From Aequorivita viscosa (GTDB lineage Bacteria > Bacteroidota > Bacteroidia > Flavobacteriales > Flavobacteriaceae), in contig NZ_FNNS01000020.1 of the NCBI RefSeq assembly GCF_900106795.1, positions 39,457-75,003 on the forward strand: a DNA stretch of 35,547 nt, read 5' to 3'. The stretch's first letter is position 1; each line of letters opens with the position of its first letter. This document shows, piece after piece, positions 24,373-31,717 of this stretch. The position numbers were made by a program, and so were the translations under genes. The notes beneath the pieces were generated by a model. It saw only the letters and a list, made by a program, of their open reading frames with translations, did no database searches and was not told where the DNA came from.

Positions 24373-24480
24373 TGTGTTTTCTTTGTACCTCTATAACAAC
24401 GGAAATTGGAAAGTGTCTAAAAGATTTTAGGGAAAAGTGAAATAAAATAATTTAAAGGATACTTAGGATATATAAATTTT

Positions 24481-24553
24481 GGGGACGGTGGGGACTTTGG
24501 AGACGATGGGACGGTGGGAACATTGTCTCACGGGGATGCCTGTAGCAGGACTT
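24481..24553. repeat. G-rich repeat on the downstream side of the four-helix-bundle gene
   Basis: Begins GGGGACGGTGGGGACTTTGG. The 16-mer at 24485-24500 (ACGGTGGGGACTTTGG) recurs exactly at 25290-25305 on the other side of the gene, in the same orientation. A related CGGGG.TGCCT stretch follows in both copies. The core GGGACGGTGGGGAC also appears in the pair at 31442-31717. Confidence 0.75.
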
Positions 24554-24588
24554 ATGATTTTTGTGGCTGGCGGAATAGTAACTGTAGT

Positions 24589-25146
24589 TTATGGCTTTTT
24601 GTAATTTATTCTGGCTTTGTACATTTTTTCTTTGAAGCCGCCATCTTTGATGAATTGTTTTTCGAGAGTTGCTATTTGCTTTTTCAATAAATAAGTGGTG
24701 ACGTTTATTAAACTTCTAAGGACGTTTGTGACTATTTGGAGCTCCTGATTTTCTATTGCTTTTTTGAAGGTTTGGTAATTGGCATTTGAGGTGCGGTTTA
24801 GTTGGTCGAAGCGTTTTGAATATGGATGGGTTCTTTCCCAGGTTGGAATATTGTGGGTGCGCATAAAATCTTCATAATCGAGGACAAGTTCCTCCAAGCT
24901 TGCCCGAGCGACGTTTGTAAGTTTTATTTCCATTTCTTTTGAGGTGCCCGATGCCATACTTGCTTCGGCGATATTTTGTTTCCCAGAGCGGGCGGCTTGG
25001 ACCATTTGGTCTATGGTTCTATCGAACCTTGGAAGATGCTGCCTACAGAAAAAGACCGTACCATCATAAATGATCTCTGCCTTTTGAAAGGTAAGGAGAG
25101 ATCTGTAGCCACCGTGTGGAGGAAGGATGTTTTCGCTTTTGGACAT
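24589..25146 (-). CDS. Four-helix-bundle protein with suffix domain (23S rRNA-IVP / Avd-like)
   Basis: A 185-residue, wholly helical protein. The N-terminal part (residues 1-115) matches the four-helix-bundle family related to 23S rRNA intervening-sequence proteins and the diversity-generating-retroelement Avd protein: IDQMVQAARSGKQNIAEAS, then KLTNVARASLEELVLDYEDF. The suffix segment follows, including TYLLKKQIATLEKQF. The family is basic and may bind nucleic acid, but stand-alone members have no settled function and no reverse transcriptase is present here. It is inserted between the ECF sigma gene and its FecR, bracketed by G-rich repeats at 24481 and 25287. This suggests the gene arrived as a unit and is not part of the sigma/FecR circuit. 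Confidence 0.85.
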   Translation of the reverse strand: MSKSENILPPHGGYRSLLTFQKAEIIYDGTVFFCRQHLPRFDRTIDQMVQAARSGKQNIAEASMASGTSKEMEIKLTNVARASLEELVLDYEDFMRTHNIPTWERTHPYSKRFDQLNRTSNANYQTFKKAIENQELQIVTNVLRSLINVTTYLLKKQIATLEKQFIKDGGFKEKMYKARINYKKP

Positions 25147-25286
25147 GACGTACCATTTTGATTGAGGGAGGGTTGGTTAAAATTAAGGAAAATTTTTGAA
25201 TTGGGAGATTGGGTGGTTTTGGGGAGGGTGTGTTAAAGGGAGGGTGGTATTTAAATTGTTGGGGAGGGTGGTATTGGGGGACGGTG

Positions 25287-25345
25287 GAGACGGTGGGGAC
25301 TTTGGGATGCTGTGGGCTTTGTCCATCGGGGTGCCTACGGTGAGG
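25287..25345. repeat. G-rich repeat on the upstream side of the four-helix-bundle gene
   Basis: Direct-repeat partner of 24481-24553, sharing the exact 16-mer at 25290-25305 and a downstream CGGGGTGCCT block. Further G-rich degenerate pieces occur from 25196. The remainder of 25147-25359 is non-coding. Confidence 0.7.
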
Positions 25346-26263: not shown

Positions 26264-26301
26264 GTTGAAAATATCTAAGATTTTGAAGCTATTTGTATTC
26301 T

Positions 26302-26541
26302 ATGGCTACAAATTTGACGGGTATCGAACTTTTTGTTATTCAAAGGGTAAAAGAAGTTCGAATTGCTAAAGGATTAAGTCAAGAAAAATTATCTCTTGCA
26401 CTGAATAAAGGTGTAGGTTTTATTGGTGATAGAGAAGCTCCTTCCAAAAAAGCTAAATACAATATTAATCACTTGAATGAAATAGCTAAAGTTTTAGATT
26501 GTTCACCTAAGGATTTTTGGCCTGAGTGTCCTATAAAGTAA
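26302..26541 (+). CDS. XRE family helix-turn-helix regulator
   Basis: A 79-residue single-domain DNA-binding protein. The HTH runs from about residue 8 to 45 (IQRVKEVRIAKGLSQEKLSL, then GVGFIGDREAP). The tail NHLNEIAKVLDCSPKDFWP is typical of a small Bacteroidota HTH_3 family. The ATG at 26302 is preferred over the TTG three codons upstream. A palindromic operator-like site precedes it. It is convergent with the CBASS operon (80 bp between their stops), and there is no partner toxin or methylase beside it. It may be an autoregulated orphan or a controller of the island. Confidence 0.85.
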   Translation: MATNLTGIELFVIQRVKEVRIAKGLSQEKLSLALNKGVGFIGDREAPSKKAKYNINHLNEIAKVLDCSPKDFWPECPIK

Positions 26542-26620
26542 GAATTGCGATTTTTATTATTAACGAACAGTACCAACTTAATATTTACCTCTTTTAGATA
26601 AATTAGAGTCATAATTTTAT

Positions 26621-27061
26621 TTAGTGTTTAATTTCTCTCCCTAACCAAACTCCATATTTTTTATACCCTTGATAGTGCACGATCCATTCAGTAATCCATG
26701 GAATCATTTTATATAATGGTATTCCTCGAAATAGAGGTTTGTCAATGATTGGATGATATAAACATAACGACAAGTCCTTGTATAAATGAATATCATCATT
26801 GTATTTAATTGATTTGTCTTTTATGTAAATTCTATCATATCGGTAGTTTAAAAATGGTGAATAGTAAAGTTCTATATCATAACTTTTGTTTTTAAAATTT
26901 AAAGTTCCTTTTCCGAATAGTGCCTTATTTGGATGATGTATTTTTAAATCAAGCCATTCAAAATAATTTTCCACAAGTGCTTTTTCAGTATTTAAAAATA
27001 CACACCAATTTTTCTTAATATCAGATATTCTACTTGCCTCCAAAGCTGTGATGAGGTTCAT
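26621..27061 (-). CDS. CBASS-associated E2-like conjugating protein (type II-short Cap2-like)
   Basis: A 146-residue protein with the pattern of prokaryotic E2 folds linked to CD-NTases: a beta-meander (GTLNFKNKSYDIELYYSP), then LSLCLYHP with the probable catalytic Cys100 and His103, and the typical ending ITEWIVHYQGYKKYGVWLG. There is no E1 or JAB peptidase domain, which distinguishes type II-short from full type II CBASS. In such systems the E2 primes the CD-NTase by conjugation through its C-terminus. It overlaps the CD-NTase gene by 32 bp, so they are co-translated, and is the last gene of the minus-strand operon. Confidence 0.8.
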   Translation of the reverse strand: MNLITALEASRISDIKKNWCVFLNTEKALVENYFEWLDLKIHHPNKALFGKGTLNFKNKSYDIELYYSPFLNYRYDRIYIKDKSIKYNDDIHLYKDLSLCLYHPIIDKPLFRGIPLYKMIPWITEWIVHYQGYKKYGVWLGREIKH

Positions 27062-28202
27062 TCTTTATTCCTTTGTTTATATTGATATTTCCTTTAGAAT
27101 CTGTCATAGCATTATTCCCAATAATTAAACCACTTGAACGTGTAAAATCATCGTCTGAATTTTTTGAAAACATTTTAATTTGTTCAGTAAGTGATTTTTT
27201 ATAAATTCCTTCGCCAAATAATTCTATATAGTCTGTATTACTTGTTTCAAATGAGTTTTTAAGACTTTGCCATTTTTTATGAAAATCAGAAATGAAATTA
27301 TAAAAGCTATTATAATGATTTTGAGTCCATGAATCCGTAAAATCTTCTTCAATGTTTACAGGATTTAAAACTTTAAATTTACACCCTGTTTTAATTGAGT
27401 CTAAGTAACTATCTTTAATTTTTTGGGTTACATTATCTATTGCATCAAAAATTGAATCTTCGCCATCATATAGCTTTGCTACAAGAGTGGTAATTACAAT
27501 ACTTGAAACTCGATAATCTTTGTTTTTAAAATAAATATCTCTATATCTTTTAATAAGCTGTACTGCTCTTTGGAGTGGTGTTTTTATATAAAATTCTTCA
27601 GGTAATGGTTCTGTTTCTACTTTAGCTTCCAATAACACTTTGGAATACATTCTTAATAAAGAAGTATCAACAGAATTAGCGATATTAAGAAACCAATTTG
27701 CAAATCCTTTAGGGTTTCCAGAAGACCAATTTCTTAATGCTTTTTCAGGTATTTTAATTTTTTCTTTATCCATACTATCAGGCATACATGCTGGTAAAAT
27801 GTCCATGTGAAAATCGCTTTTATAATTAAGCCTTACACATCTTGGTTTTTTTTCCATTATGGATTTATAATATGTATCTTTTTCTAATGCTTTTATCAAG
27901 GCATTATATACTTGCTCTGGCGAATAATTATAATACAAATCATATATGTGAAGAACAGTATCTAAATCAAAATCTTCATCATTTATTGGCTTAACAGTAG
28001 TGCCTATTCTTTTTGAACCTTGTGCATAAATTTCAATTTCTAATGGGGCAAAAAAATCATCATCTTTTTTTAATGCTTCGGCTACCGAATGATATGCACT
28101 TTCCATTCTTTCAAGCCTTGTTTTATCTAATTGAAGTTCTTGCGCTATTCTTGCTAAAAGCTCTTCTCGTTGTAGTCTGTAATCTTTAAATATGTCTATC
28201 AT
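27030..28202 (-). CDS. CBASS cyclic oligonucleotide synthase (CD-NTase, cGAS/DncV-like)
   Basis: A 390-residue nucleotidyltransferase. The pol-beta-like active site is intact: Gly62-Ser63 in YAQGSKRIGT, the metal-binding Asp79 and Asp81 in DFDLDT, and the third carboxylate Asp134 in FHMDILPA. CD-NTases make cyclic di- or trinucleotides after phage infection to activate a downstream effector. The clade and product cannot be read reliably by eye. The C-terminal tail ends SFGGK, and a terminal Gly is where E2/Cap2 conjugation takes place in related systems, here with one additional Lys. The gene follows the NUDIX gene by 3 bp and overlaps the E2 gene. Confidence 0.9.
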   Translation of the reverse strand: MIDIFKDYRLQREELLARIAQELQLDKTRLERMESAYHSVAEALKKDDDFFAPLEIEIYAQGSKRIGTTVKPINDEDFDLDTVLHIYDLYYNYSPEQVYNALIKALEKDTYYKSIMEKKPRCVRLNYKSDFHMDILPACMPDSMDKEKIKIPEKALRNWSSGNPKGFANWFLNIANSVDTSLLRMYSKVLLEAKVETEPLPEEFYIKTPLQRAVQLIKRYRDIYFKNKDYRVSSIVITTLVAKLYDGEDSIFDAIDNVTQKIKDSYLDSIKTGCKFKVLNPVNIEEDFTDSWTQNHYNSFYNFISDFHKKWQSLKNSFETSNTDYIELFGEGIYKKSLTEQIKMFSKNSDDDFTRSSGLIIGNNAMTDSKGNININKGIKNEPHHSFGGK

Positions 28203-28205
28203 TTT

Positions 28206-28952
28206 TTAAAATTTTTGATTGATTAGTAATTTTGTTTGCGCTCCAATACGAGCAATTTGTTTTCCATTTTTCATAAATCGTAATTGTCTAATATCATCAG
28301 AACTTACTATTGCATAACCCTTTTTCAGTTTGGTCTTATTCTGGTTTAAAGCTTTAAGTGCTTCTTTCTGTTTTTCATTTGGTAGTAATTCAAAAACATC
28401 ATAAACAAGAATTTCAAAACAGCTAAAAAACTCACTCCATTTTAAGTGTTTTGAAAACCTTCTAATGTGTTTATATTTTATTTGGCTGAATACTTTACTA
28501 TCTAAAATTGAAGTGTTAATTAGTTCTTCATTAAATTCTCTTTCGCCACTAACTTCTCTTTCTTTTCCTTCATCAAACCATTTTATGACTTTGACAACAT
28601 TTTTACCAGTAACTTTAAATCGCAAATCTCCATTACTTTCTGAATCTACATCTAATCCATTTTTTCTATTATCAGGCGAAAATCCCCAATCATTAAATAG
28701 TTTATCATCTCCATAGCGTTTATAAACACCACCAACTGGTTGTAGTTGATTTTCTATTCTTCTGTTAAGAACAAGTAGGTAATTGTCTGTGTCAGGTATT
28801 TGAATTTTAAAAAGATAACTGATTGAGAATCTTATATCTTTACTTCTATACTTTCCGAATAAAGTTTTTAAATAAAGACTTAACATGTCTTTATTTTCCC
28901 ATAGTTTAACTACGGATTTTGTAAAAATTGTTTTAAGTAATGATTCTATCAT
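28206..28952 (-). CDS. SMODS-associated NUDIX protein, CBASS effector or accessory (Cap16-like without TM)
   Basis: A 248-residue protein. A strand-rich core with LQPVGGVYKRYGDD (about residues 70-83) and the helix EREVSGEREFNEELI (about 132-146), which keeps the NUDIX REx2EE signature, identifies the SMODS-associated NUDIX (Sa_NUDIX) family. In TM-NUDIX CBASS effectors the domain is fused to N-terminal membrane helices. Here the N-terminus (MIESLLKTIFTKSVVKLWEN) is amphipathic at most. The gene immediately upstream instead encodes a 51-residue single-span protein, possibly the missing membrane part. Likely role: recognising the cyclic nucleotide and triggering membrane damage. It lies 3 bp before the CD-NTase gene. 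Confidence 0.78.
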   Translation of the reverse strand: MIESLLKTIFTKSVVKLWENKDMLSLYLKTLFGKYRSKDIRFSISYLFKIQIPDTDNYLLVLNRRIENQLQPVGGVYKRYGDDKLFNDWGFSPDNRKNGLDVDSESNGDLRFKVTGKNVVKVIKWFDEGKEREVSGEREFNEELINTSILDSKVFSQIKYKHIRRFSKHLKWSEFFSCFEILVYDVFELLPNEKQKEALKALNQNKTKLKKGYAIVSSDDIRQLRFMKNGKQIARIGAQTKLLINQKF

Positions 28953-29011
28953 ATATTTTATTTTTCTTAAAAAATGGCAGTCCCATTTCTGAGACTACCA
29001 ACATTATTCTC

Positions 29012-29167
29012 CTATTTTGAAGATTCGATAATAGAAGCTATACTACCAATAACAACTAAAAAGGCAAGACTATAAGTCAAAACTTTTGCTAAATCTCCAT
29101 TAGCATCTACACAGTTGTTTTTATAGCAAAAACTTATATTATCTTTTGATAAATTAATTTTACTCAT
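29012..29167 (-). CDS. Small single-pass membrane protein in the CBASS operon
   Basis: A 51-residue protein read directly from the sequence, starting MSKINLSKDNISFCYKNNCV. It has one membrane span at about residues 28-47 (LTYSLAFLVVIGSIASII), a polar 27-residue N-terminus with Cys14 and Cys19, and a short acidic tail ending ESSK. No family is recognised. It lies 59 bp upstream of the NUDIX gene on the same strand. Because TM-NUDIX effectors normally carry their own membrane helices and this NUDIX protein has none, this gene may supply the membrane-embedded part. An alternative is an antitoxin-like or accessory peptide. Confidence 0.6.
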   Translation of the reverse strand: MSKINLSKDNISFCYKNNCVDANGDLAKVLTYSLAFLVVIGSIASIIESSK

Positions 29168-29228
29168 AAAATTAATTTTGTTTGCTTTTCACTACCAGCA
29201 GAAAAACTTTGCCGAACACGTAATAGTG

Positions 29229-29405
29229 TTATTTCTTTTCTTTTCTAACTCCTTTGAATGGTTTGTTGTCAGAAGTCTTTACATCCATAAACCTACCCGT
29301 GTCTGAATCACGTTTTACCCAAGAATCTGTTTTTGGGTTATAAGTCTGTGAACGATCTCTAACAGCACCCTTTCTGGAATTATCCTTTGGTGGATTTGTC
29401 GCCAT
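29229..29405 (-). CDS. Small basic protein at the head of the CBASS operon
   Basis: A 58-residue, strongly basic soluble protein (MATNPPKDNSRKGAVRDRSQ, then TYNPKTDSWVKRD, TGRFMDVK and PFKGVRKEK). The pattern (RxGAVRDRSQ, NPKT, WVKRD, GRFMD, PFKGVRKE) is one I have seen as a short conserved hypothetical in many bacteria, but no function is established. It is probably nucleic-acid or acid binding by charge alone. The ATG at 29405 was chosen because conservation begins there. It is the first gene after the divergent promoter region and lies 61 bp before the 51-aa membrane gene. Confidence 0.65.
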   Translation of the reverse strand: MATNPPKDNSRKGAVRDRSQTYNPKTDSWVKRDSDTGRFMDVKTSDNKPFKGVRKEKK

Positions 29406-29476
29406 CTTTATATAATTTATATTCAACAATATTCTTTTAACTTCTCGACATAAAAGATTTGACGGAAATGAAATAC

Positions 29477-29557
29477 ACTTCATAAGTATAAATGAAAAAG
29501 CGTGACATCATTATTTTTTCTTAAATTGTCACGGATTTTTATTTAGATTAGTGAAAG
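29477..29557. promoter_or_regulatory. Divergent promoter region with oppositely facing TGTCACG boxes
   Basis: TGTCACG on the plus strand (29527-29533) faces the sigma gene, and the same heptamer on the minus strand (29507-29501) faces the CBASS operon, 19 bp apart. The similarity extends beyond the box. Over 31 bp reading outward the two sides match at 22 positions, including TTTT, ATTTA and a TGAA block 18-25 bp after the heptamer. This fits two promoters read by the same alternative sigma factor, with TGTCACG as the -35 element, but it would also fit an operator for a dimer. If it is a promoter, the sigma mRNA would be almost leaderless. Confidence 0.55.
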
Positions 29558-30205
29558 ATGCAATTAGATGAATTAGAAGAAGTGTTATTAACTATATCAT
29601 ACAAAGAAGATGATGAAAAATCTTCATTAGATGCTTTTAATACTATATATAGAGCCTACAGTAAGTTGCTTTCGGCTATCGTAAAAAGTAACTTGAAGAA
29701 AATGGGGATTTACAATCAACAACTTTATGAAGCAACAATCAACAATGTTTTCATCAAGTTATATGAAAACCCATTATCGTTTGAAATACCAAAAAATGCA
29801 AAAAATGATAATTGCTTTAAAGCCTGGTTATCTGTTGTCGCCAGTAACGAAATAAAAAAACTTATTAAAGAATATTATAACAAGGAAAAGTTGCTGGAAG
29901 TAATAAGTGATGAACCAGTTATTGAAAGCGAAGATATTAATGAAGAATTAGCAGATAGTGTCAATAAAAAATTAATGATTGATGCTTTAAATTCATTAAG
30001 TGAACGAGATAAAGCTATAATGTTTACTTTATATAATTATTATGAAGAAGGCAGAAAAACTCCAACAAATGTCTTAAATGATTTATGCAAATTGCACAAT
30101 ACAACAAAATTAAACATTAGAAAAATTAAAGAAAGAAGTGAGAAAAAAATTATTGAATTTTTTGCACAACATTCACAATTAAAACCTTTAAAAAATGTCA
30201 AATAA
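29558..30205 (+). CDS. Sigma-70 family (ECF-like) factor of the CBASS-linked regulatory operon
   Basis: A 215-residue protein. Region 2 is recognisable at about 25-110 (AFNTIYRAYSKLLSAIVK, then VFIKLYEN, FKAWLSVVASNEIKKLI) and region 4 at about 145-195 (LNSLSERDKAIMFTLYNYYE and NIRKIKERSEKKI). It is more divergent than the Sus-locus ECF factor and has no linked FecR. It starts a three-gene operon with a 101-aa charged protein (11-bp overlap) and an ImmA/IrrE peptidase, divergent from CBASS. The promoter boxes shared by both operons suggest that it transcribes both. An unusual transcription factor without sigma activity cannot be excluded. Confidence 0.75.
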   Translation: MQLDELEEVLLTISYKEDDEKSSLDAFNTIYRAYSKLLSAIVKSNLKKMGIYNQQLYEATINNVFIKLYENPLSFEIPKNAKNDNCFKAWLSVVASNEIKKLIKEYYNKEKLLEVISDEPVIESEDINEELADSVNKKLMIDALNSLSERDKAIMFTLYNYYEEGRKTPTNVLNDLCKLHNTTKLNIRKIKERSEKKIIEFFAQHSQLKPLKNVK

Positions 30206-30500
30206 AAAGTTAATTGATTTATTTAAGTCTAAAGGTTTACTGTTTCCTTCAAATGATGAAGAAATTGAAGAATTTGAAAATTCTGAAAATATCTTAAATG
30301 AAACACCTTTAGATTGGGACAATCCATCTGACATATTAAAAAGAGGGTATTTAAAACTTACTAACTTCAATTTAGAGAACGATGCTGTTTCATCTGACGA
30401 AATTCAAAACTTATCAAGAGCTGCAAGAGAAGGTAAAGAAATTTCAGAAAAAGTCAGTAAAAAAATGTTAGAGGATAAAAATGCAAGTAAAAAAAAGTAA
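30195..30500 (+). CDS. Small charged protein between sigma factor and ImmA/IrrE peptidase; candidate anti-sigma
   Basis: A 101-residue soluble protein with no recognised domain. The N-terminal part is acidic (SNDEEIEEFENSENILNE), the middle contains DWDNPSDILKRGYLKLT, and the C-terminus is helical and basic (NLSRAAREGKEISEKVSKKM). It overlaps the sigma gene by 11 bp and the peptidase gene by 20 bp, so all three products are made together. By analogy with ImmR/ImmA and CapH/CapP pairs, the middle protein of such an operon is the natural target of the peptidase. An anti-sigma role is my inference. Confidence 0.6.
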   Translation: MSNKKLIDLFKSKGLLFPSNDEEIEEFENSENILNETPLDWDNPSDILKRGYLKLTNFNLENDAVSSDEIQNLSRAAREGKEISEKVSKKMLEDKNASKKK

Positions 30501-31302
30501 TTCATTTTTAAGTGATTTTGAAAAAGAGGAAATTGAAAATCTTGCAGAATATATATCTTTAAGTTATTTTCAAAAAGGTCCTGTTGATGTTGAGTTAATA
30601 GCAGAAAAAGAAAACATCTCTTTTTGTTATGGTAATTATGAGGAATCTTACGATGGTTTACTTGAACACGAATATGGAAGTTTTCATATTTATATAAACA
30701 TTGACAGATTACAACACGCTTATACTGAAAGAGCAAGATTTACGTTTGCTCATGAATTAGGGCATTATTTTATTGATAGACATAGAAACGCATTATCAAA
30801 AGGACTTATAAACAGTCATCCATCTTTCACAGGGTTTGTTTCTGATATAAAAATGGAACGTGAAGCAGATTACTTCGCTTCATGCTTATTAATTCCAAAA
30901 AAATGGGTTCAAGAATATTGCTTTAAAAAATCTTTTTCATTTAGAATTATTCAAGAACTATCCAAATTGCATCAAGTTAGCTTAACAGCTACTGCAATAA
31001 GGTTTGCTATTATAGGATGCCATCCAATAATGGTAGTTTGTTCTCAAAACAATCGAGTTAAATGGTATTGGAGTACTTCTGATTTTCCTTTTTGGACTTT
31101 AAAACACGGTAAAGAAAAAGTGCCAGTTGATACCGCTGTTGGCGAATATTTTTTAAATGGAACAAAATATGATTCTTCTGAAACTGTTTATGCGGATGAT
31201 TGGTTCAAAGTAAAATTTCAAGATGATTATGACAGAAAATTTTATGAGCAATGTATTTATGGTTATGATAACACTGTTATAAGTATTTTGTGGGAGGATT
31301 AA
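30481..31302 (+). CDS. ImmA/IrrE family metallopeptidase
   Basis: A 273-residue cytoplasmic zinc protease. The HExxH motif is at residues 91-95 (TFAHELGHYF), and the third ligand is probably Glu128 in MEREADYFASCLLIP, both typical of ImmA/IrrE. The C-terminal 120 residues (from about 155) are a separate domain with several Trp and Tyr residues (WYWSTSDFPFW) and may be a sensor. Family members cleave repressors or anti-sigma-like proteins in response to DNA damage or other stress. It closes the operon begun by the sigma factor and overlaps the preceding gene by 20 bp. Its likely substrate is that 101-aa protein. Confidence 0.88.
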   Translation: MQVKKSNSFLSDFEKEEIENLAEYISLSYFQKGPVDVELIAEKENISFCYGNYEESYDGLLEHEYGSFHIYINIDRLQHAYTERARFTFAHELGHYFIDRHRNALSKGLINSHPSFTGFVSDIKMEREADYFASCLLIPKKWVQEYCFKKSFSFRIIQELSKLHQVSLTATAIRFAIIGCHPIMVVCSQNNRVKWYWSTSDFPFWTLKHGKEKVPVDTAVGEYFLNGTKYDSSETVYADDWFKVKFQDDYDRKFYEQCIYGYDNTVISILWED

Positions 31303-31441: not shown

Positions 31442-31717
31442 GGGGTTGAATGGCTTTGATGTTTGTTTTGGGGACGGTGGGGACAATGGAGATATTGGGG
31501 ACAATGGGATACGGCTAATAAACCGGAAAAGGCTGTTTTGATTTACCGCCACAGATGAGATAGTTGGAAGGTTTAATGTAGCATGGGGTTGATGTTTTTT
31601 TTGGGGGGACGGTGGGGACAATGGAGATATTGGGGACAATGGGATACGGCTTATAAACCGGAGAAGGTAGTTTTGATTTGCGACCACCGAGAAGGTAGTT
31701 GGGAAGTTTAATTTAGT
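31442..31717. repeat. Tandem duplication of a ~135-bp G-rich unit
   Basis: Two imperfect direct copies (31442-31582 and 31585-31717) share GGGACGGTGGGGACAATGGA, GGACAATGGGATACGGCT and TAAACCGG.GAAGG, and end TAGTTGG.A.GTTTAAT.TAG. The same GGGACGGTGGGGAC core flanks the four-helix-bundle gene at 24481 and 25287. No four-helix gene lies here. The unit looks non-coding: the open frame across it only mirrors the repeat. Confidence 0.8.

Follow-up and report, generated by a model that had tools for sequence, protein, structure and literature searches.

A putative sigma factor, anti-sigma and CapP-type peptidase switch beside CBASS and other bacterial immune operons

What switches on an immune operon when the gene that stands where a repressor would be expected encodes a sigma factor? 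The question is raised by a locus of Aequorivita viscosa (contig NZ_FNNS01000020.1), analyzed here within a stretch of 35,547 nucleotides ("the window", positions 39,457 to 75,003 of the contig). At 29558-31302 on the plus strand, divergent from a cyclic oligonucleotide-based antiphage signaling system (CBASS) operon, lie three overlapping genes (by 11 nt, then 20 nt) for an extracytoplasmic function (ECF)-like sigma factor, a 101-aa protein and a CapP-family metallopeptidase, hereafter the trio. A first-pass annotation of this DNA had described the same coordinates and gene order, which are confirmed here, and had seen a sigma factor standing where CapH is expected, a view that our analysis supports. 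The elements in question are:

29558..30205, plus strand: ECF-like sigma factor, 215 aa (NCBIfam sigma70-ECF 4.7e-10, below cut-off; family profile; fold)
30195..30500, plus strand: 101-aa protein with a proposed anti-sigma head and CapP-cleavable tail (27-member alignment; no helix-turn-helix (HTH) in Pfam; PADLOC capH 1.1e-5)
30481..31302, plus strand: CapP-family M78 (ImmA/IrrE) metallopeptidase, 273 aa, with HELGH and E126 (Pfam M78 8.5e-11; PADLOC capP 8.9e-68)
29501..29533, unstranded: inverted repeat CGTGACA-N19-TGTCACG, in the divergent intergenic region between the sigma gene and CBASS

We favor, with a probability of roughly 0.6, the reading that the trio works as a sigma/anti-sigma/peptidase switch governing the immune operon next to it. 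The head of the 101-aa protein would bind and silence the sigma factor, and the CapP-type peptidase would cut the tail, probably between the second A and the R of A-A-R-x-G. By analogy, the trigger for CapP would be single-stranded DNA arising from damage or phage attack; cleavage would free the sigma factor, which would then send RNA polymerase to the divergent promoters on either side of the inverted repeat that they share and so produce more of the switch and of CBASS. The sigma/101-aa binding, the cleavage site, the single-stranded DNA signal and activation rather than derepression are all steps that we infer; the circuit as a whole, much as the first-pass annotation had proposed it, is plausible from the genes. 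If it operates, such a switch would be a positive, self-amplifying control, and it would explain how some Bacteroidota immune operons that have no adjacent repressor gene stay off and then fire.

Are the three proteins what they seem? Their identities, first read from motifs, are borne out by family searches, profiles and fold. The profile of 24 sigma family members matches 52 PDB sequences at E ≤ 0.1, SigW best (2.3e-9) and RpoE and sigma-E among them; two are cilia proteins (E 0.02) and the rest are sigma factors. It aligns to SigW on the region 2 side and to SigA region 4, and thus contains both sigma regions. The AlphaFold model of the window sigma factor (mean pLDDT 84.0, pTM 0.51), which no PADLOC model recognizes, places ECF sigma or sigma/anti-sigma structures at the top of a Foldseek search (8 matches at E ≤ 0.001; sigma-E/RseA 2.1e-4), and the region 2 entry 4lup reaches a TM-score of 0.70 of target. 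The peptidase is an M78 metallopeptidase with HExxH and a third ligand, and H91, E92, H95, E126 and D130 are kept in 27/27 relatives. Its nearest solved relatives are CapP and IrrE/PprI, CapP (PDB 7t5t) being the closest (E 2.9e-7 with the window peptidase alone, 3e-25 as a family profile). Trio-linked CapPs cluster: in a tree of 50 CapP-like proteins, in which the program flagged long branches, the trio label changes 2 times, vs 16.8 for shuffled labels.

What, then, would set the peptidase off? Both CapP and PprI are reported to be activated by single-stranded DNA. A precedent of another kind is CalpL/CalpT/CalpS of type III CRISPR, in which a protease cuts an anti-sigma factor and a sigma factor is freed (PMC12751052). 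The trio resembles Calp in its logic of protease, anti-sigma and sigma in immunity, here read from genes; unlike the ImmA/IrrE metallopeptidase of the trio, CalpL is a Lon-SAVED protease fired by cyclic tetra-adenylate (cA4), and neither Pfam nor PADLOC matches the window peptidase to Lon or SAVED at E ≤ 1. Might the CapP signal be the CBASS cyclic nucleotide, or some other phage cue, with the 101-aa protein still binding the sigma factor and the circuit acting as a feed-forward loop after CBASS fires, as cA4 fires CalpL? That the Calp triad answers to a second messenger (PMC12751052) lends this idea some appeal, but some trios adjoin Bil or ubiquitin-like operons, where no nucleotide cyclase is recognized, and the solved proteins nearest to the peptidase are those with a reported single-stranded DNA trigger; we regard it as improbable.

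The 101-aa protein is the crux of the favored reading. It has no Pfam domain, and at E ≤ 1 Pfam detects an HTH family in none of the 27 relatives in its alignment, so that the N-terminal HTH of CapH is missing; a single coiled-coil-type match (6e-4) was found in one of the 27. By sequence, the peptidase is thus a CapP whose partner is not a CapH, which is defined by its HTH. M1 and R78 are invariant in 27/27 small proteins, and G14 (26), P18 (26), A77 (26), M91 (25) and G80 (20) recur in most of them, with a tail motif AAR-x-G-x-x-[IL]. Sigma and small genes overlap or lie ≤18 nt apart in 24/24 loci (first-start open reading frame (ORF) calls). Because the AAR-x-G tail with its invariant arginine resembles the PprI cut site in DdrO (L-R-G, cut before R), CapP would be predicted to cut between A77 and R78. 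In Deinococcus, the M78 peptidase PprI (IrrE) cuts DdrO before arginine, between L and R of L-R-G-K-R (PMC10904395, PMC4374696, PMC8072749), a cut also given as Leu106-Arg107 (PMC8072749); that DdrO R109A is still cut advises caution about the proposed position. The trio thus recalls PprI/DdrO in pairing an M78 peptidase with a regulator that carries an arginine-anchored site, its own cut being predicted; unlike DdrO, an XRE repressor, the substrate here is an anti-sigma candidate.

Why anti-sigma? The main reason is that nature has swapped heads and tails. At two loci (L165, 6617-9371; L166, 5980-7426) a sigma gene is followed by the small-protein head (E 5.2e-10 and 1e-5, respectively) fused to a different, longer tail; CapP was not found in the 17.5 kb of L165, no CapP is annotated next to the sigma/head pair of L166, and a caspase-domain gene lies two genes past the L165 head gene (Peptidase_C14 3.4e-14). 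Conversely, pairs of an HTH-containing CapH with CapP occur in the same phylum as the trio (L131, L132, L143). Heads thus track the sigma factor and tails the protease, which argues for the anti-sigma reading. Inspection by eye alone suggested a Panacea/DUF4065 identity for the L165/L166 tail, and in Pfam L165 had no match at E ≤ 0.01. Of the anti-sigma role that the first-pass annotation had assigned to the 101-aa protein, what stands is indirect: the lack of an HTH in 27/27, the coupling to sigma in 24/24, the arginine tail beside a peptidase and the tail swaps are each consistent with an anti-sigma head joined to a protease-substrate tail.

Is the arrangement more than a local accident? The sigma-small-CapP gene order recurs across Bacteroidota and reaches Balneolota and Planctomycetota, so it is not a chance arrangement. 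A CapP-family search of genome contigs gave the best 80 of at least 96 confirmed loci; 26 loci plus the window make up the 27-locus CapP alignment, and the remaining CapP relatives from this search fall outside the trio group. A three-sequence sigma profile found sigma in 24/27 of the aligned loci, inspection by eye added L061, and L047 stops at the contig edge. The small gene was found by profile in 21/26 fetched loci and by position in L040, L052, L056, L057 and L061. A small-protein search matched 10/395 genomes in a phylum sample and 9/395 in a class sample, with four genomes common to both. No sigma relative was found in viral contigs searched with the three-sequence sigma alignment, and among plasmids, three of 18 peptidase-matching records and one sigma match were examined. 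Three candidates were dropped from the neighbor count that follows: L169, with a sigma-profile E of 0.013, and L060 and L062, which resemble the trio in their three-gene layout but whose first genes reach an hhalign sigma probability of 0.5% each (L062 has a weak Sigma70_r4_2 match, E 0.0031). In L062:6779-16548, the genes immediately upstream of a type I-B CRISPR-Cas operon (Cas8b 4.5e-105, plus DevR/Cas7 and Cas5) are a CapP-like gene, one of 158 aa and one with weak resemblance to sigma region 4. At L060:3031-5902, a CapP-like gene and two unrecognized upstream genes are divergent from a CBASS cyclase operon, a layout that may represent a far-diverged second version of the switch.

What stands beside the trio? 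Thirty of 39 readable, non-redundant loci adjoin immune or ubiquitin-like operons (DUF1508/YegP included), and nine have no recognized immune neighbor:

CBASS, 14 loci: window, L035, L036, L039, L040, L042, L045, L046, L048, L049, L051, L114, L115, L116
Pycsar, 3 loci: L043, L050, plasmid L167
Bil, 2 loci: L034, L119
Other ubiquitin-like operon, 10 loci: L037, L038, L041, L056, L117, L118, L163, L164, L165 (by eye), plasmid L166
DUF1508/YegP, 1 locus: L053
Unknown genes or ORFs of no assigned function, 5 loci: L052, L055, L058, L162, L168
No immune neighbor nearby, 4 loci (by eye): L057, L061, L120, L121

The 39 are the window, L034-L043, L045, L046, L048-L053, L055-L058, L061, L114-L121 and L162-L168, with L165 and L166 counted on sigma and head only. 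Second copies were excluded (L001, L003-L005, L018, L024-L033, L122-L130, L145, L151, and L161, which equals L040), as were L044, L047 and L054, whose divergent side lies beyond the contig edge; L043 and L050, which come from two species, are nearly identical. Genome G158 was assumed to be L046, and G072 to be L048, their trio proteins being equal in length and score. L057, L061, L120, L121, L052 and L055 were judged by eye from ORF lists (L120 in part) and not by family scans; the L165 neighbors were also assigned by eye, and the multiubiquitin-like protein there has no PADLOC match. The genome samples, which include the window genome, give cleaner figures because many of the 39 loci came from the CapP query: 8/9 matched genomes of the class sample (the miss being G1011) and 8/10 of the phylum sample (G399 and G635 missing) have an immune neighbor. 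The trio therefore recurs beside CD-NTases and keeps company mostly with defense genes, both as the first-pass annotation would have it; it is not CBASS-specific.

Does the trio control these operons or merely travel with them? A self-contained stress or toxin-antitoxin-like module, carried along in defense islands and exerting no control over CBASS, would account for the nine loci that lack a recognized immune neighbor, L121 included, and defense islands do gather unrelated modules; however, in the 30 loci with an immune neighbor the trio is divergent from the neighboring operon, in many of them with a conserved dyad in between, and of all the explanations weighed here we give this one the least credence. 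Under the switch reading, whatever stands divergent from the trio, for example beside L052, L055, L162 or L168, is a candidate immune operon. At L162:5822-7075 and L168:3965-4933, the genes that lie divergent from a complete trio have no known function and are candidate undescribed immune genes.

How does this compare with known controllers? CapW, CapH (with CapP) and CapK+CapS are three DNA-damage controllers of immune operons, all acting by repression; CapH+CapP controls CBASS and other immune operons, and CapK+CapS, a controller reported in 2026, is found next to CBASS, Bil, Bub, MBL and YegP (PMC13373217). The trio is like CapH+CapP in placing a CapP-type M78 peptidase and a small partner beside CBASS, Pycsar and Bub-type operons, and unlike it in that the head of the partner has no recognizable HTH and a sigma factor gene comes before the partner gene. 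Lau et al. (2022) are said to have described CapH+CapP as a controller of CBASS and other immune operons. The trio adjoins a set of operons similar to that of CapK+CapS, which, unlike the trio, is a kinase with a STAS-wHTH repressor, as CapW/BrxR is a WYL repressor; neither comes with a sigma factor. Within the titles and abstract openings of the open-licence literature, a scope outside which Lau et al. falls, no sigma/CapP immune controller was found. A switch beside several kinds of immune operon suggests a little-noticed way of turning immunity on. We see about an even chance that the trio represents a fourth general family of immune-operon controllers, a positive one, in which a released sigma factor would turn on CBASS, Pycsar, Bil and ubiquitin-like operons in Bacteroidota, Balneolota and Planctomycetota, with heads and protease-specific tails exchanged to take CapP or other inputs.

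The DNA between the divergent operons tells a more ambiguous story. The genome of 3.5 Mb contains a single CGTGACA-N4..34-TGTCACG and no copy of the reversed control pattern. A dyad CGTKAC...GTMACG, a pattern chosen after the sequences had been seen, scores above all 200 dinucleotide shuffles upstream of sigma in 15/34 loci and at p ≤ 0.03 in 4 more. Past miscalled starts, exact dyads also appear in L036 and L037, and a half-site or dyad is present in 24/36 loci, a count made without the shuffle control; plasmid loci L166-L168 have dyads by eye. Half-site spans range from 11 to 55 bp, with 11, 22, 33 and 55 bp recurring; among 19 hand-collected spans, the 11 above 15 bp cluster near multiples of 11 (post hoc permutation p 0.010; p 0.015 for a period of 10.5). 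On the outer side of many half-sites (GTnACG) lies a TATA-like box, about 7-12 bp away (by eye). What would such an element do? It may be an operator over two divergent promoters of the household sigma, with the sigma-like protein, alone or together with the 101-aa protein, as the repressor that CapP would release by cutting the 101-aa protein, as with CapH. The dyad of half-sites is the best evidence for derepression of this kind; spans near multiples of 11 bp are as expected for a protein on one DNA face, many half-sites have TATA-like boxes on their outer side, CapW, CapH and CapS are all repressors (PMC13373217), and the PADLOC capH model matches 25/27 small proteins (best 5.5e-15). But the 101-aa family has no HTH in Pfam, and the sigma family retains both sigma regions by profile and fold, and sigma factors are normally not repressors; we therefore judge derepression unlikely, if the strongest of the competing accounts.

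How much does the capH match mean? The model also gives matches in 14/14 control genomes, and the six small proteins tested match capH (PDLC04142) and no other PADLOC HTH model, whereas the HTH CapHs of L131 and L132 match many; it may mix two kinds of CapP partner. Homology of the small-protein head to HTH proteins or CapH finds no support in Pfam, profile comparison or Foldseek.

Several observations nevertheless weigh against a sigma/anti-sigma switch. The window sigma factor scores 39.3 bits, below the NCBIfam sigma70-ECF cut-off of 42.9, and has no Pfam sigma match on its own; Pfam detects region 2 in 5/24 and region 4 in 3/24 family members, and the whole-chain TM-scores of the model are low (0.25-0.36 of query), which a different placement of the two domains might explain. 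The 101-aa protein is poorly modeled (pLDDT 71.6, pTM 0.27) and has no Foldseek match at E ≤ 0.001, and a profile comparison of the small proteins with three HTH CapHs aligned 22 tail columns at a non-significant probability of 2.4%. L054 has small and CapP genes and no sigma in the 726 bp upstream; the trio of L121 sits among household genes, and that of L120 beside exopolysaccharide-like genes (by eye). In 15/34 loci the dyad is no better than chance (p 0.2 or more; some have miscalled start codons), and its box spacing and variable spans misfit a -35/-10 promoter. Ordinary ECF -35/-10 promoters in either direction were in fact rejected by eye, the boxes being about 7-12 bp apart and the spans 11-55 bp. 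The dyad is therefore not claimed as the sigma factor's promoter, and that sigma switches on both promoters is a step that we infer.

The other half of the locus, 26621-28952 on the minus strand, is a type II-short CBASS, as first annotated: Pfam and PADLOC identify a CD-NTase, an E2 and an effector without an E1, which was matched by 0/9 proteins scanned from 26293-31302. Two short minus-strand ORFs between the NUDIX and sigma genes, both missing from the first-pass annotation, complete the list:

26621..27061, minus strand: CBASS E2-like protein, 146 aa (PADLOC E2 6.3e-50; no Pfam match)
27030..28202, minus strand: CD-NTase (oligonucleotide cyclase), 390 aa (Pfam SMODS 4.5e-18, DncV-like 7.2e-10; PADLOC Cyclase 4.4e-180)
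28206..28952, minus strand: SMODS-associated NUDIX effector, 248 aa (Pfam Sa_NUDIX 9.9e-61; PADLOC Effector 3.1e-94)
29012..29167, minus strand: 51-aa ORF with one hydrophobic stretch (ORF list)
29229..29405, minus strand: 58-aa basic protein, first gene of the CBASS operon (PADLOC candidate family PDC-S38 5.4e-32)

The 51-aa ORF matches nothing in Pfam or PADLOC, nor anything in NCBIfam above cut-off; similar short ORFs occupy the equivalent position in L048, L051 and L116 (by eye), and it may be a genuine CBASS-associated membrane peptide. The start of the 58-aa protein, set at MATNPPKDN, lies within an 84-aa ORF, and relatives of this PDC-S38 protein occur in L114, L045 and L115. Just past the E2 gene and convergent with it, 26293-26541 encodes an 82-aa XRE-type HTH protein (Pfam HTH_3 6.5e-5). 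G-rich imperfect repeats of one family lie on both flanks of the CBASS/switch island, at 24477-25315 and 31466-31643.

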